Source: Bacteroidota bacterium (GTDB taxonomy: Bacteria > Bacteroidota > Bacteroidia > JAFLBG01). From it: a stretch of DNA of 64,000 nucleotides. Where the stretch lies: the NCBI GenBank assembly GCA_017303975.1, contig JAFLBG010000007.1, forward strand, positions 1 through 64,000. The letters run 5' to 3'. Positions 12,677 to 34,321 of the stretch are shown here, one piece after another. Positions within the stretch are counted from its first letter, which is position 1; every line of letters begins with the position of its first letter. Position numbers and translations under genes: made by a program. Under the pieces are notes generated by a model, which made no database searches, had not been told where the DNA came from, and saw nothing but the letters and a program-made list of their open reading frames with translations.

Positions 12677-14167
12677 TCACATTAGATCAATCATTACCGT
12701 TTTTTGCAGCTTAGATTTAATCCATGCAGAAATATCTAAAAAAGAAGAAGAATCGTAAACATCTTGATTTTGTTGAAAAAAAGAGGCAACCTCTTTTTTT
12801 AACTTTAAAAACTCGCTATACTTTTGCGTTTCGCTTAAGTTGTTTTTAAGAATTTTGTATAAAGGGGAGAAAAGCAGATTACAAAAAGAAAAATAGCTAT
12901 CGTAATCAACAGTTAGTTTTTTTAACTCATCCAACTCACTAACAAAAAGCGGTAATTTATTTTGGTCGAATCTCTTCAAAACCTGCATAAATCGCAACAT
13001 AATGTGTAGGTCAAATCTATCTCTCAAACTGTCTTTATAGTTGTTAAATAAGTCGGCAGCATATTTATTCGATTTTTTATATTCGCCCATTATAAAATAT
13101 CCGTAGGAAAGCCAATATTTAAGCTCTAACTCTAATCTACCACTTAATTGAATTTTCTTTAGTGCCAACTCTAGGGCAAAAAACTCTTTTTTAAATAACG
13201 AAACATGTCCAATCTTAAGGTAGCTTATCATTAAGGCAGAACTGGCTTGTAATTTCTCGGAATAGAACATAGAGGAGTGCACCATTTTGTATTTATGCAT
13301 ATACGCAATAAAAGTTTTATAGTCTTTTTCATTGTATAGATTTATAAGTGATCTATAAAACGATTCTACATAAATATGTTCAGAAAGAAACTCCTTGTTT
13401 TTTATTAAAAAATTAAGAGTGTCCGTTAAATAATATAGCTGCTTCTGTTTCTCTTTTTTTATAGCATGGAAAAAATATAGTATGTTATTGTATTTTATTC
13501 TTTCCGTTAGAGAAAGCTCATTCAAATTCGTCTGATTTTTAAAAGCCACTACATCTGCCAATACCTGTTCATTCGCAACCATGTTATTTTTGTTAATTTG
13601 AGTATGGTGCAAAATAAGGCTGTTGAGCAAAAAAGTAATATCGAATTTCCTTGATATTATTTTTGATTGTTGAATGGCCATATCTCTTATTCTCCTGTTT
13701 TCGTTTACAAATTCCTGTCCACTCTTAATTAGTGTTAAATTAATTCGCATGAGTACATTGAGTAAAGCAGGATACATTTCTATCAACTCCTTATTTTTTA
13801 CTATGGCCTCTGCTTTTTGATATAAAAAATATGCATAATCGGCATCTCCTTTATTAAGTATGTATTCTATTTGTGTAATATAGTATGCCACCAATCCATA
13901 CTTATTATTATCTATATTGTGATAAGTCATAGAATCAATTATCACATTGTAAAGCCGATTTTTAATTACAGCAAAATTGTCCGATATCCCTGTTTCTCTA
14001 AGTTTTAGTTTTAGCTCATCTTCATCATATTCTTTCTGCTTTTCAATCGCATCAAATAATACGATGTAGTTTTTCCCTTTTTCTTTGTTAACCCACATTT
14101 TGAAATACCTTTTTTCTCCTTTTGTAAGTGAGTGTATTAACGTATGTATTCGTTCTCTGTTTTGCAT
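12677..14167 (-). CDS. Helical-repeat (TPR-like) protein of unknown function, paralogue of the 32849 gene
   Basis: A 496-residue protein with no signal peptide, predicted almost wholly helical and rich in Lys, Leu and Tyr. The N-terminal block reads IHSLTKGEKRYF, then YIVLFDAIEKQK and KNRLYNVIIDSM; the same three landmarks occur in the 490-residue protein at 32849-34321, so the two are paralogues. The middle has TPR-like helix pairs. I do not recognise a named family. The start was placed at ATG 14167 because the longer frame needs a GTG 18 nt upstream. Each paralogue lies next to T9SS cargo genes, but no functional link is shown. Confidence 0.7.
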   Translation of the reverse strand: MQNRERIHTLIHSLTKGEKRYFKMWVNKEKGKNYIVLFDAIEKQKEYDEDELKLKLRETGISDNFAVIKNRLYNVIIDSMTYHNIDNNKYGLVAYYITQIEYILNKGDADYAYFLYQKAEAIVKNKELIEMYPALLNVLMRINLTLIKSGQEFVNENRRIRDMAIQQSKIISRKFDITFLLNSLILHHTQINKNNMVANEQVLADVVAFKNQTNLNELSLTERIKYNNILYFFHAIKKEKQKQLYYLTDTLNFLIKNKEFLSEHIYVESFYRSLINLYNEKDYKTFIAYMHKYKMVHSSMFYSEKLQASSALMISYLKIGHVSLFKKEFFALELALKKIQLSGRLELELKYWLSYGYFIMGEYKKSNKYAADLFNNYKDSLRDRFDLHIMLRFMQVLKRFDQNKLPLFVSELDELKKLTVDYDSYFSFCNLLFSPLYKILKNNLSETQKYSEFLKLKKEVASFFQQNQDVYDSSSFLDISAWIKSKLQKTVMIDLM

Positions 14168-14295
14168 AATCAAAATTATTTTCACTAAAAATAGTACATA
14201 TTAAATGAAATGCAAAAATTTGTAATGATGTGATATACAGGTAAATAAAAAAAGTATAAATTAAATAGAAGTGTAATTGAAGTGTCATTTTTTGC

Positions 14296-16322: not shown

Positions 16323-19300
16323 ATGAAAACAAAAATTATTATATCGACAGTAATATTCTGTTTAGTTTATATACTCTCAAACTCACAGTCATTGGGTTGG
16401 GCAAAACAAATTGGTAGCACAACAGGTAATGATGAAGGTAAGTCTATAACTGTGGATGCCTTTGGAAATATTTATACTAAGGGTTATTTTGACAATAAAG
16501 TTGATTTTGATCCGGGCGTAGGAGTGTATAATCTTACTTCTAATGGACCAAGAGATATATTTATTTCGAAACTAAATGCAGCAGGAAATTTTGTTTGGGC
16601 TAAACAGTTAACTATTAACAATTCCAATGATTTAAATCTACTATTAACCACGGATGCTACTGGTAGTGTATATACCACAGGAAATTTTTCGGGAACTGTT
16701 GACTTTGACCCGGGTTCGGGAGTGTTTAGTTTGAGTTCTGCCGGAGCCGGTAAGGATATTTTCATTCAAAAGTTGGATTCTAACGGAAATTTTGTTTGGG
16801 CTAAAAAAATTGGAGCAAATGGTGTAGATTTAGCTGCTTCCATATCTGTTGATGCATTAGGTAACGTATATACTACAGGCCAATATACCGATGTTGTTGA
16901 TTTTGATCCAGGAGTAGGTGTTTTTAAACTCACAGCCCCAACCATAAACCCATATTTATTTATTTGTAAAATAAATGCAGTAGGAAATTTTGTTTGGGCT
17001 AAAAGTATTGAAACAGATGGGAATACTAATTACAGTTCTATTAAAGCGGATGCTTTGGGAAACGTATATACCGTAGGCGAATTTAAGAATGCGGTTGATT
17101 TAGACCCAGGTATAGGAACATACACAGTTAGTGCAGGAGTGGGTCCTCATACATTTGTTGTAAAATTAAATACTTCTGGAAATTTTGTTTGGGCTAAGCA
17201 TTTTGAATCGAATTCGACTACAACAGCGTTTTCATCTAGGTATATAGAAATGGATACGCAAGGTGATTTATATGTTGCCGGAAATTTTGATGGCACTATT
17301 ACCTTCGACCCTGGAATAAATATTCACACTCTATCTGATTTAAGCGCGTATAACCCGGGTTTTGTTTGTAAATTAAACTCTGCGGGTAATATAAAATGGG
17401 TAAAAAAAATAGATAACGTTACTATAGATAGAATAGTAATTGACCAGAATAATAACTTATACTTTTCCGATTTTTTTTATCTTAATAGAAGTGTTTTAAA
17501 AGTAAATGCTTTTGGAAATGTTTCCTGGAGATTATATTTTGGTTATGATCTTTATATAAATTCCATGGCTGTTAATAATGCAGGAGAACTATTTTTTACG
17601 GGACGTTTTAGTGATAAAATTGATGTTGATGCGGGAGCAGATACCATCTATCTTTCCAGCAATAGTTATGATGATGCTTTTATTTTAAAGTATAATACCT
17701 TAAACCCTTGCGCAAATGATGAATGCAGCAATGCGCAACAACTGATTCCTACAACTCCGCAATCTCTTACCCTAGCTAGTTTTAATCTAGCAACGCAGTC
17801 AATCGCTCCTGAAAATTGTACTGGATCAACTTCGTTGCAAGCGAATGATGTTTGGTTTAAGTTTGTAGCGGATTCTACGACAAATTCAATTGTAGTGAAT
17901 CATGGACAGTACGATCAGCCAACTATTGGGGTGTATAATTCATGTGGAGGAAATTTATTGGCTTGTGTAGATACACCGTTTACGGATGATTACACCACAC
18001 TTACATATAATAATTTTGTAATTGGCCTAACTTATTTTATTCGAGTGTATGCAAATAGCCTGCCACTACTAGATTATGATTTTTCTATTTGTGTTACCAA
18101 TAAACCGATTAATCCCTCAAATGATGATTGCACAGGAGCATTACCTATCACAATAGCAGCAAACGACTCGGTATGTAATCCACTAAAAGTGAACACCGAT
18201 TTTGCAACAAACTCAAATCAGTATTCTACCTGTTGGAATGCCACTAAAAATGATATGGATGATGATGTGTGGTATAAATTTACTGCAACATCCCAAAATA
18301 TTGGAATGGCTGTTTCTAATTTAAGCGGTTACACTTATAGTAGTTGGAGTAAATATATTTCCTATGCCTTATACTCAGGCGCTCCTGATTCTTTAACTCA
18401 GGTGGATTGTGGTTCAAATTTGCCTTACGCCACTAAAGGGTTTAAAGACCTAGTTATAGGTCAAACCTATTATTTACAAGTCATGTTCGGAGAAACATAT
18501 TATAGAGGGACGTTTGATCTTTGTTTGTTTCAACGTCCTGCAATAGATGAATGCTCAACCACCTCTGCAATGTTAATTCCTAATTCCACTTGTAATTTTG
18601 TGAGTGGTACATTAGAAAAAGCTACAAAGTCGCCAATGTATAATACTTCTAGTTGGAATACCTGCGATTACGGTAATTCTAGTTTTAATGAATTAAGAGA
18701 TGTTTGGTACAAATTTGTAGCAAGCAATACATTTAATACCATTACCGTTAATCCTTCAATTGGTTTGGATGTTATTCTTGCCGTATTTGATTCGTGCGGT
18801 GGAGTTCCTTTCATATGTGAAAATAACAATCCCCAAGGAGGACTTGAAAATAATACACATGGAAATTATAGTGTCGGAAAAACATATTATATCCGAGTGC
18901 GCGAGTACACTTCAAATAGCACTACGTCCACTTTTAATATTTGCATCACACAACCAACTTCCGGATTCAGCGCAACTGCAACATCAACTCCAATAAAATG
19001 TAATGGAGCTTCGGATGGAGTTGTAAATGTAACTGCTGTAGGAGGCACGCAACCATACAACTATAGTTGGAATACAAATCCTGCACAACACACACAAGTA
19101 GCAACAGGTGTTCCAGCCGGCACGTATGTTTGCTTGATTACCGATGCAAACAATTCTACAGCACTTGCGGCAATAATACTTAAGCAACCATCTGCTCTAC
19201 AAATTACATCAACTGTTACTTCTGTTAATTGCAATACAACAAATTCTGGCTCTGTACTTATAGCTACAGCTGGTGGTACAGCTGGTTATTCATATAAGTG

Positions 19301-32091: not shown

Positions 32092-32292
32092 ATGAAATCA
32101 AAAATGAAATTGAAAGATTTAGAAGTTAAAAGCTTTACTACATCTTTGACTAAGACAGAGGAAAAAACAATTATGGGAGCTTTGGCAACTCAATGTTGTG
32201 GAGCAACTGATACAAGTTGTAAAACCGTAGAGCCGGCTCCTCTTGCAACACAGTGCTGTAGAGCTAGTGATACAAGCTGTATGACTGTATAA
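32092..32292 (+). CDS. Class I lanthipeptide-type precursor with two core repeats
   Basis: A 66-residue peptide. The leader (1-29) has the Bacteroidota lanthipeptide pattern: LKDLEVKSFTTSLTKTE, then GALA. Two core units follow, 31-46 and 51-66, which read LATQCCGATDTSCKTV and LATQCCRASDTSCMTV, joined by EPAP. Each has three Cys and four or five Ser/Thr, so dehydration and (methyl)lanthionine rings are possible. A second ATG at residue 5 could also start it. No LanB, LanC, protease or exporter is in the window, so modifying enzymes must be elsewhere, or the peptide stays unmodified. Leader recognition is from family knowledge; modification is inferred. Confidence 0.78.
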   Translation: MKSKMKLKDLEVKSFTTSLTKTEEKTIMGALATQCCGATDTSCKTVEPAPLATQCCRASDTSCMTV

Positions 32293-32302
32293 TTTAAACT
32301 AC

Positions 32303-32348
32303 GTCCTTCAGATTTTATCTGCACAAACGGATTGTTAGTCTGAAGGAC
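32303..32348 (+). terminator. Hairpin between precursor and partner gene (attenuator-like)
   Basis: GTCCTTCAGA (32303-32312) pairs perfectly with TCTGAAGGAC (32339-32348) across a loop of 26 nt; a T/A-rich run follows. It begins 11 nt after the precursor stop and ends 15 nt before the next start. It could be a partial terminator that favours the precursor transcript, or an RNA stabiliser. Confidence 0.65.
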
Positions 32349-32363
32349 TTTAAAATTGGTTAA

Positions 32364-32795
32364 ATGAAAAGGAATTTGTTTTCTTTTGAGTGCACTGCAT
32401 ATAAGAATAAACATCTTGGTATGTTTGTTTCCTGGATGATTTTAAATGGTTTAATAGCTGATAAGCATAAGTCAAATGCACTATCGGTATTGATGAAAGT
32501 AATGAATAAAGAAATTACAGGCCTCGAGTTTATAGCTATTGCATGCGATGGTAATATGAAAGAAACTGATTTTAATGATGAGGGTAAATTGTTTGCACAC
32601 TATTATCTTTGTTGTTCAAGTAATAACGATTTTTCATTGTACACTAAAGATTGTTTGACTGTGTTTCGAAAATCATTGTCTTCAATTTTGGAAGTAGAAA
32701 ATACATGGATTAATTATCAACAGATTAAGCCGGTTATTGCAACAAAATTTTTAACATGGCGCGAGTTGCAAAACAATTATTGTTTGCAAAAGTAG
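32364..32795 (+). CDS. Small cytoplasmic protein, possibly DUF7832-like, partner of the lanthipeptide precursor
   Basis: A 143-residue protein without signal or membrane segment. By memory of the pattern it resembles a family of small cytoplasmic proteins (DUF7832-like) with HLGMFVSWMI near 17-26, EITGLEFIAIACDG near 50-63, a DFNDEGKLFAHYY segment and a C-terminal ENTWINYQQIKPVI...FLTW. This assignment is uncertain. It lies 71 nt downstream of the precursor, behind the hairpin, and is the only gene clearly linked with it. A role in self-protection, leader binding or peptide handling would be inference from position only. Confidence 0.55.
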   Translation: MKRNLFSFECTAYKNKHLGMFVSWMILNGLIADKHKSNALSVLMKVMNKEITGLEFIAIACDGNMKETDFNDEGKLFAHYYLCCSSNNDFSLYTKDCLTVFRKSLSSILEVENTWINYQQIKPVIATKFLTWRELQNNYCLQK

Positions 32796-32848: not shown

Positions 32849-34321
32849 CTATACAATTTCTTTGAGTTTACCCCTTACCCATTTTAATAAATATAAGCCT
32901 CCTACTAATGTATTTGTTTTATGTTTTTGAAGCAATGAGTTAAGTAGCTCAAATTGCGAGGTGCTGTTTCTATTGTCTTTTATAATTTCAAGTAATCTAG
33001 AATAGAATTCATTTTCAAAGGTATATCCTAAGTTTTGTTCGGTAAATGGTTTTATTTCTTTTTTATAGCACAGTTCTGCTTGTTCGTAATCTCTTCGTTC
33101 GAAAAAGAGCAAAAATTTGAGTGTGCAAAATTTATGTTTTCTAATGTCATACTTTTTTGCTTCGAAAAGGTTGTTTGTATCGACCATAACCTTTCCCATT
33201 TTTTTAAAGTCCTTTTTTAACAAAAACAAAATTAGGAGATGATTTACAATAGCTAGATAGGTATTTGAATTGTTGTTTTTGTTTTTCTGTAAAAAATCTT
33301 CTACTTGACTAGTGCTAAACTCTTCTAGATTATTACTGTTTAGCATATAGTTAATTTCGGTAGTAAAAAGTTTTGCTTGAATAATTAAAGCTCTTAGTCC
33401 AAGTTGTTTTTTATTTAGTGTGTTTTCAAATGTATGCAGCATTTCTTTTGCCAATTCAGTTTTGTTTATGTGAGCGTAATAACCACACAATTGTAAATAC
33501 GCATTGCAGTATTTTGCATAGAACGATGGATATTGTTCGAGTAGTTGTTTCTGCTCACTATACAGCAGGAGTAGTTTTTCGTAGTGTTTGATTGCTTCTG
33601 TAATTTGGCCGGTATAGCCATTTAGAATCGCAATTGTTTCTAATGAAATAAATTTTGTTTTATGCAAAGATTCTTTTTCTCGAAGTATTTCAGTGCTAGA
33701 ATTTAGGAGGGTTGAGAGTTTATTGTTGTTTTCTTTTTTGTTGGGATGGGATTGATTAGTAAGGTAAATCATTTCGTAGCTATTGATTAAAGCTCGTTGA
33801 TTTAGGTCGTTTAGGTTTTTTGTGTACTTCAATTCATCCAACTTGCTTGAAAATTCTTCCGGTGTATATTCTGCTAAGTGAAAAAATACTTTTAGCTCAT
33901 ATGAAATTAATTCTTGTAGCTTATCAAACAACTCCTTCTCTTTGGCTACTTGTTTAGCTTTTTTTATTTGCTGAAAGCACTTTTCGTATTGTTCTTTTTG
34001 CTCCAGTATTTTTATAGTTTCTAAATAATTATTTATTTCATCTTCTATATCGAAATTCGACTTGTTGGCTTGTAAGCTCTTTAGGATAAGCTCATATAAG
34101 TAGTTTTTGGTGGAGGCAAAATTTTTGATTTTTCCCGAAAGCTGCTTTTTTATTTTTTCTTCATCATATAATTTGTTTTCGGCAATATTATCAAAAAGCA
34201 GCATGTAGGAATTCTCTTCTTTACCAATAACATGCTTAGAAGCATAGTGGTAAAATTGTTTTTTCTCTGCTCCTGTTAATGAATGAATAAGGTTGTATAG
34301 TGATAAGCTTACTTCTGCCAT
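32849..34321 (-). CDS. Helical-repeat (TPR-like) protein of unknown function, paralogue of the 12677 gene
   Basis: A 490-residue helical protein without signal peptide. The N terminus MAEVSLSLYNLIHSLTGAEK, then YMLLFDNIAENKLYDEEKI and KNYLYELILKSL correspond to the 12677-14167 protein. TPR-like helix pairs follow (for example AIKHYEKLLLLYSEQ and RRDYEQAELCYKKEI). No family name is known to me. It is convergent with the lanthipeptide-partner gene (53 nt between stops). Together the two paralogues bracket the 14.3-32.8 kb zone. Confidence 0.72.
   Translation of the reverse strand: MAEVSLSLYNLIHSLTGAEKKQFYHYASKHVIGKEENSYMLLFDNIAENKLYDEEKIKKQLSGKIKNFASTKNYLYELILKSLQANKSNFDIEDEINNYLETIKILEQKEQYEKCFQQIKKAKQVAKEKELFDKLQELISYELKVFFHLAEYTPEEFSSKLDELKYTKNLNDLNQRALINSYEMIYLTNQSHPNKKENNNKLSTLLNSSTEILREKESLHKTKFISLETIAILNGYTGQITEAIKHYEKLLLLYSEQKQLLEQYPSFYAKYCNAYLQLCGYYAHINKTELAKEMLHTFENTLNKKQLGLRALIIQAKLFTTEINYMLNSNNLEEFSTSQVEDFLQKNKNNNSNTYLAIVNHLLILFLLKKDFKKMGKVMVDTNNLFEAKKYDIRKHKFCTLKFLLFFERRDYEQAELCYKKEIKPFTEQNLGYTFENEFYSRLLEIIKDNRNSTSQFELLNSLLQKHKTNTLVGGLYLLKWVRGKLKEIV

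Follow-up and report, generated by a model that had tools for sequence, protein, structure and literature searches.

Judged from its sequence, the 66-residue ORF at positions 32092..32292 (+) of the 64-kb window analysed here (the whole stretch of Bacteroidota DNA) is a tandem-core, pinensin-type class I lanthipeptide precursor, encoded in a genome in which both precursors and enzymes are dispersed. We consider it likely that the peptide is modified in trans by the single, remotely encoded enzyme set of this genome, which probably acts on a whole series of dispersed peptides.

Precursor and tandem core

The 66-residue peptide matches the pinensin leader model well above its cut-off (NF038180 leader_pinensin, E 7.6e-8, 32.1 bits, cut-off 24), in agreement with the class I lanthipeptide-type leader proposed in an initial annotation of this DNA. 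It reads, in order, MKSKMKLKDLEVKSFTTSLTKTEEKTIMGA, LATQCCGATDTSCKTV, EPAP and LATQCCRASDTSCMTV. The leader comprises residues 1-30 (32092..32181, +) and has a G-A end of the double-glycine type, which is the predicted cleavage site; residues S14, F15, T17, T26 and G29 are invariant among the 19 leaders of alignment A1. By NF038180 score, only two of the 12 leaders in the genome are weaker, and the leader alignments are too variable for building search patterns. The leader ends in MGA and is followed by a 36-aa core with 10 Ser/Thr and 6 Cys, so that a GG-type leader end stands ahead of a Ser/Thr/Cys-rich core. Core copy 1 (32182..32229, +) and core copy 2 (32242..32289, +) are separated by the EPAP spacer (32230..32241, +).

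As previously annotated, the two 16-residue cores are near-identical (13/16 residues) and carry three Cys each. They form a 50-nt direct repeat with a DNA identity of 76%. About 12 differences separate them over 48 nt, 7.5 synonymous and 4.5 nonsynonymous, with synonymous sites amounting to 10.5 of the 48 (dS saturated, dN 0.13, Fisher p 1.6e-4). Since the differences are mainly synonymous despite the small number of synonymous sites, the peptide sequence of both cores has been kept.

The initial annotation expected two mature peptides from this arrangement. There is, however, one leader and one G-A site, and the EPAP that alone lies between the cores is not of the double-glycine type, which makes a single product the simpler expectation; most likely, the gene would give rise to a single 36-residue peptide in which EPAP links two similar ring domains, rather than to two peptides. 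In core 1, a lone Thr is the sole core Ser/Thr located N-terminal to the Cys-Cys pair. LanC cyclisation usually joins Cys to a Dha/Dhb located on its N-terminal side, and the pinensins are a stated case of this rule (PMC13060382). With a single Ser/Thr before the pair, at most one of the two Cys would therefore close a ring in the usual direction, and the other could possibly be present as a free thiol or in a disulfide.

A scan of the genome collection, confined to exact 8-residue patterns, found the window core in no other genome. A chimeric query made of the precursor and the neighbouring 143-aa protein recovered no relative from the genome contig collection, a plasmid search with the precursor gave no match, and neither protein had a match in PADLOC, or in PHROGs at an E-value under 0.08.

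Sister precursors and remote enzymes

The precursor had been described as an orphan. A whole-genome search contradicts this description: 12 NF038180 leaders score over the cut-off of 24, across 8 contigs, and the 11 sister precursors share the genome with one enzyme set. Their cores are unrelated to the window core. The two precursor pairs on contigs C1 and C5, like the window gene, have shorter or Cys-rich cores. Long cores are found in five other sisters, which have in common a Cys-containing pattern such as FT(I/V)G...C.DS(N/H)N.(F/Y)C (L013:58-426, L014:8457-8846, L015:9197-9568, L018:9646-10002 and L019:8850-9209); their core length of about 85-100 aa is unusual among lanthipeptides.

Family searches of the whole genome recovered a single LanB N-terminal half on contig C23, a single LanC on C10 and a single C39 peptidase on C8. 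The window belongs to contig C7; the absence of LanB, LanC and C39 exporter from it, noted initially, is thus confirmed, and the idea that remote enzymes act on the precursor, then raised as one alternative, is strongly supported. The LanB is split, with a 1016-aa glutamylation half adjoining a 332-aa elimination half (Lant_dehydr_C, 160.8 bits), and its N-terminal half is a sequence relative of the solved lantibiotic dehydratase domain protein 6ec7. The LanC (661 aa) contains the zinc-ligand motifs WCHG and CHG. Sequence comparison relates it to LicM2 and LanC-like proteins; among curated models a LanM synthetase comes nearest, with a match across the cyclase part. The C39 exporter, which adjoins an HlyD-like fusion protein, is a relative of the bacteriocin transporter 4ry2 over its whole length. 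The hallmarks of class I, a LanB (here split and on another contig) and a LanC with zinc motifs, are therefore present in the genome; the usual, though not obligatory, adjacency of precursor and enzymes is absent.

This LanC (L013:9381-11366) has a C-terminal extension of ~230 aa past the cyclase domain, common to it and the LanC of genome G354 (see below). The end of the extension resembles a leader-binding RRE-type fold, as judged by eye only.

The genome is 99.8% complete and 0.27% contaminated. It is a draft of 70 contigs, so that dispersal here means location on different contigs. The dispersal does not look like a contig-edge artefact, as the contigs that carry LanB, LanC and C39 are 52-105 kb long and these genes are far from their ends, nor like contamination or a binning error, the tetranucleotide usage of the window and of the enzyme contigs being correlated with an r of about 0.99.

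The same enzymes and leaders in other genomes

All five proteins have full-length counterparts in a clustered set in G354, with 65% identity for the exporter, 43% for the fusion protein, 43% and 47% for the N- and C-terminal parts of LanB and 38% for LanC. Four pinensin leaders are located between LanB and LanC in G354, and genome G343 has one, about 4 kb or less from LanB and likewise near LanC. When GTDB genomes were searched for LanC, five loci were retrieved (L067-L071), corresponding to the G354 contig (Bacteroidetes MAG RYN_274), Adhaeribacter aerolatus, Fulvivirga kasyanovii and two MAG contigs. In L067, which is the G354 contig, and in L069, the genes PCAT-HlyD-LanB-LanB-LanC are all adjacent; L068, L070 and L071 are truncated contigs with part of the set, adjacent as far as they reach. 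Pinensin precursors were recognised at three of the five loci (L067, L069 and L071). Within the class, the pinensin leader occurs in 5/395 genomes, four of which encode LanB, as compared with 45/395 overall (Fisher p 7e-4). The dispersed layout is not unique to the window's genome, since it is repeated in G046, where seven leaders are spread over six contigs and LanB-N stands without other enzymes in the surrounding 20 kb.

The LanC-like protein near the pinensin leader of G343 (L065:8014-9888) has AWAHG and GYCG in place of the AWCHG and LCHG of other LanCs, and may have lost its zinc ligands.

The leader could instead be used by other machinery. In that case the product would be secreted as a Cys-rich peptide, either disulfide-bonded or unmodified, and would have only the C39 exporter in common with lanthipeptides. 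The adjacent Cys-Cys pairs and the long Cys-rich cores of the sisters would suit such a peptide. Furthermore, the pinensin cluster of G354 lies beside a small ORF that combines a KPFFAKFLE leader with the repeats TLKYPSD and TLKFPSD, followed by two ATP-grasp genes; we take this ORF to be a microviridin-type graspetide precursor. However, a search of the window's genome, run without a positive control, found no homologue of one of these two ATP-grasps, and the leader family itself co-occurs with LanB, which makes this explanation unlikely.

RNA elements around the precursor gene

The 5' UTR of the precursor gene contains a DUF805b cis-regulatory RNA (RF02914; 32034..32069, +; cmscan 39.2 bits, gathering 35.6), which the initial annotation had missed and which is the sole Rfam match in the window. 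Its last base lies 22 nt from the start codon. The match to the known RNA is full-length, and the gene behind it is here a RiPP precursor. Two further copies in the scanned DNA of this genome are located upstream of a probable outer-membrane protein gene and of a large exported protein gene, about 20-21 nt from the start codon in each case; none was found at the other precursors examined in the genome. In G354, a DUF805b RNA (L063:16296-16330) stands directly before the small ORF with the KPFFAKFLE leader, which starts at 16330.

The perfect 10-bp inverted repeat annotated between the precursor and the next ORF is present and forms an intercistronic hairpin (32303..32348, +, arms 32303-32312 and 32339-32348). 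Its RNA folds with -22.6 kcal/mol (z -4.4), and a consensus scan detected no canonical intrinsic terminator with a T-run. Because it folds well and strong 3' hairpins also occur at two of the ten sister precursors examined, we regard it as probably an RNA 3'-end or attenuator stem.

The DUF7832 neighbour

The 143-residue ORF reported in the same direction (32364..32795, +) begins 71 nt after the precursor gene and encodes a DUF7832 protein (PF25191, E 9.8e-20, 71.3 bits, cut-off 27). The match starts at profile position 24: the protein is divergent, N-terminally short and devoid of the W-H-x-G-G-D-F-P region of the family (alignment A4). AlphaFold, run on the protein alone, gave a pLDDT of 40. 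Sequence searches found no relative of DUF7832 in the PDB and none in phages, and the open-access literature searched yielded no paper on it.

The initial annotation saw this protein as a partner of the peptide. The two could form a peptide/immunity or peptide/tailoring pair, in which DUF7832 protects against the product or modifies it and the hairpin sets the ratio between them. The common strand, the short gap and the intervening hairpin would fit such a pair. On a Priestia plasmid, moreover, a DUF7832 relative is found among SMI1/KNR4, YxiJ and DUF3885 genes, surroundings that, from general knowledge, we take to resemble an immunity-gene array; this context hints at an immunity-type role for DUF7832 and carries no information on the window peptide. 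The distribution of the family argues against a pair. DUF7832 is present in 10/395 genomes of the class; a pinensin leader is absent from all nine others, so that only the window's genome has both. In related genomes, its neighbours within about 1.5 kb are ordinary cellular genes, with no RiPP genes among them. The gene is single-copy in its own genome and hence lies beside none of the 11 sister precursors, and the window protein lacks the N-terminal region of its family. Since the nine other DUF7832 genomes are without pinensin leader and the gene has non-RiPP neighbours, we do not interpret the two genes as forming a system; such a system is unsupported, and an immunity or tailoring pair appears quite unlikely.

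Two findings had been named in the initial annotation as jointly fatal to the RiPP reading: precursor homologues linked to lanthipeptide enzymes nowhere, and a 143-residue family that does not co-occur with precursors. The first does not hold, as the precursors are linked to such enzymes in other Bacteroidota, and the second does. The reading of the peptide as a RiPP thus survives and that of the two genes as a pair does not.

Helical proteins in precursor regions

The convergent neighbour of the precursor and DUF7832 genes (32849..34321, -) encodes a 490-aa, all-helical, TPR-like protein with no Pfam match above the cut-off, which we call type A. The window encodes a second one (12677-14185, -), also TPR-like and helical; both are ~490-500 aa long. 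Modelled from a two-sequence input, the convergent neighbour forms a TPR-like superhelix (moderate confidence, pLDDT 69), which Foldseek matches to generic TPR proteins, NprR and Rap included. Type A proteins are distantly related to type B proteins, which likewise belong to no Pfam family (L014:6721-8214, L014:100-1560, L015:3122-4633, L017:8322-9773, L017:4501-5975 and L019:9363-10832). The gene at L017:4501-5975 appears to be split, by a frameshift or an assembly error, into two frames of 295 and 215 aa that overlap.

Precursor regions totalling 194 kb contain six type B genes, and 839 kb of other DNA of the same genome, made up of a 780 kb control and 59 kb around the enzyme loci and from the rest of contig C7, contains none. 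The pattern had been seen before it was tested; the second 380 kb of the control, drawn afterwards, also contained no type B gene. Type A genes number four in precursor regions vs three in the comparison DNA. A phmmer search for type B proteins near precursors of other genomes found none, most such loci being short. Type B proteins may simply share accessory regions with the precursors, and a functional link to the scattered precursors is possible. One could imagine a dispersed, prochlorosin-like class I system whose pinensin-leader peptides are modified signals read by nearby TPR-like receptors of ~490 aa, because type B genes were found only in precursor regions of this genome and the peptide receptors NprR and Rap are in the Foldseek list of type A, among many TPR proteins. 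We consider this scenario very unlikely.

Discussion

We favour modification in trans by the remote enzyme set. The 30-residue leader would recruit the sole split LanB, encoded on C23, and this LanB pair would dehydrate Ser/Thr residues of the core, after which the sole LanC, encoded on C10, would close thioether rings with Cys. The sole C39 peptidase-exporter, together with its fusion protein (C8), would then cut after G-A and export the product. The same kit would serve the 11 further scattered precursors. Expression is probably tuned by the DUF805b RNA ahead of the gene and by the hairpin behind it, and the downstream DUF7832 gene may be a read-through passenger or possibly an immunity-type gene.

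That the precursor is instead a relic, which keeps its leader and is no longer expressed or modified, and with its surroundings represents the remnants of a once clustered system, would agree with a leader weaker than those of most sisters, the absence of local enzymes and a truncated DUF7832 neighbour, but is highly improbable given the conservation of both cores mainly through synonymous change, the intact ORF, the 5' UTR RNA scoring over its gathering threshold and the complete set of enzymes elsewhere.

Trans-modification by the remote set invites comparison with two known groups. The pinensins of Chitinophaga pinensis, also of class I (NF038180), share with the window precursor a leader family, as its score over the cut-off indicates. 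A split LanB has been reported for them, as found in the window's genome, and pinensin-associated LanCs resemble LanM cyclases (PMC7268733), to whose cyclase domains the C10 LanC is also closest. Unlike in the pinensins, the window precursor lies far from all enzymes and has a duplicated short core with Cys-Cys pairs, and its genome combines 12 precursors with enzymes on three contigs. In this respect, it is reminiscent of the class II prochlorosins and synechococsins, in which one synthetase, ProcM or SyncM, serves a large number of scattered precursors whose leaders are related and whose cores vary (PMC10783134). The likeness, known here from genes alone, consists of 12 leaders and one enzyme set, as compared with 29 precursors for ProcM and 79 for SyncM. 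The window system is nevertheless not a member of this group, as prochlorosins rely on LanM and Nif11 leaders, in contrast to the class I split LanB, LanC and pinensin leader found here. The open-access literature searched yielded no account of a class I system with scattered precursors and one promiscuous synthetase, although one may exist.

A previous mining study considered only precursors located up to seven genes from LanC, and its authors remarked that distant ones were missed (PMC7268733). If the system proposed here is confirmed, cluster-based mining would miss most lanthipeptides of such genomes. The system would then also be useful for studies of substrate tolerance, since its class I enzymes would have 12 natural substrates whose cores differ widely in length and sequence.
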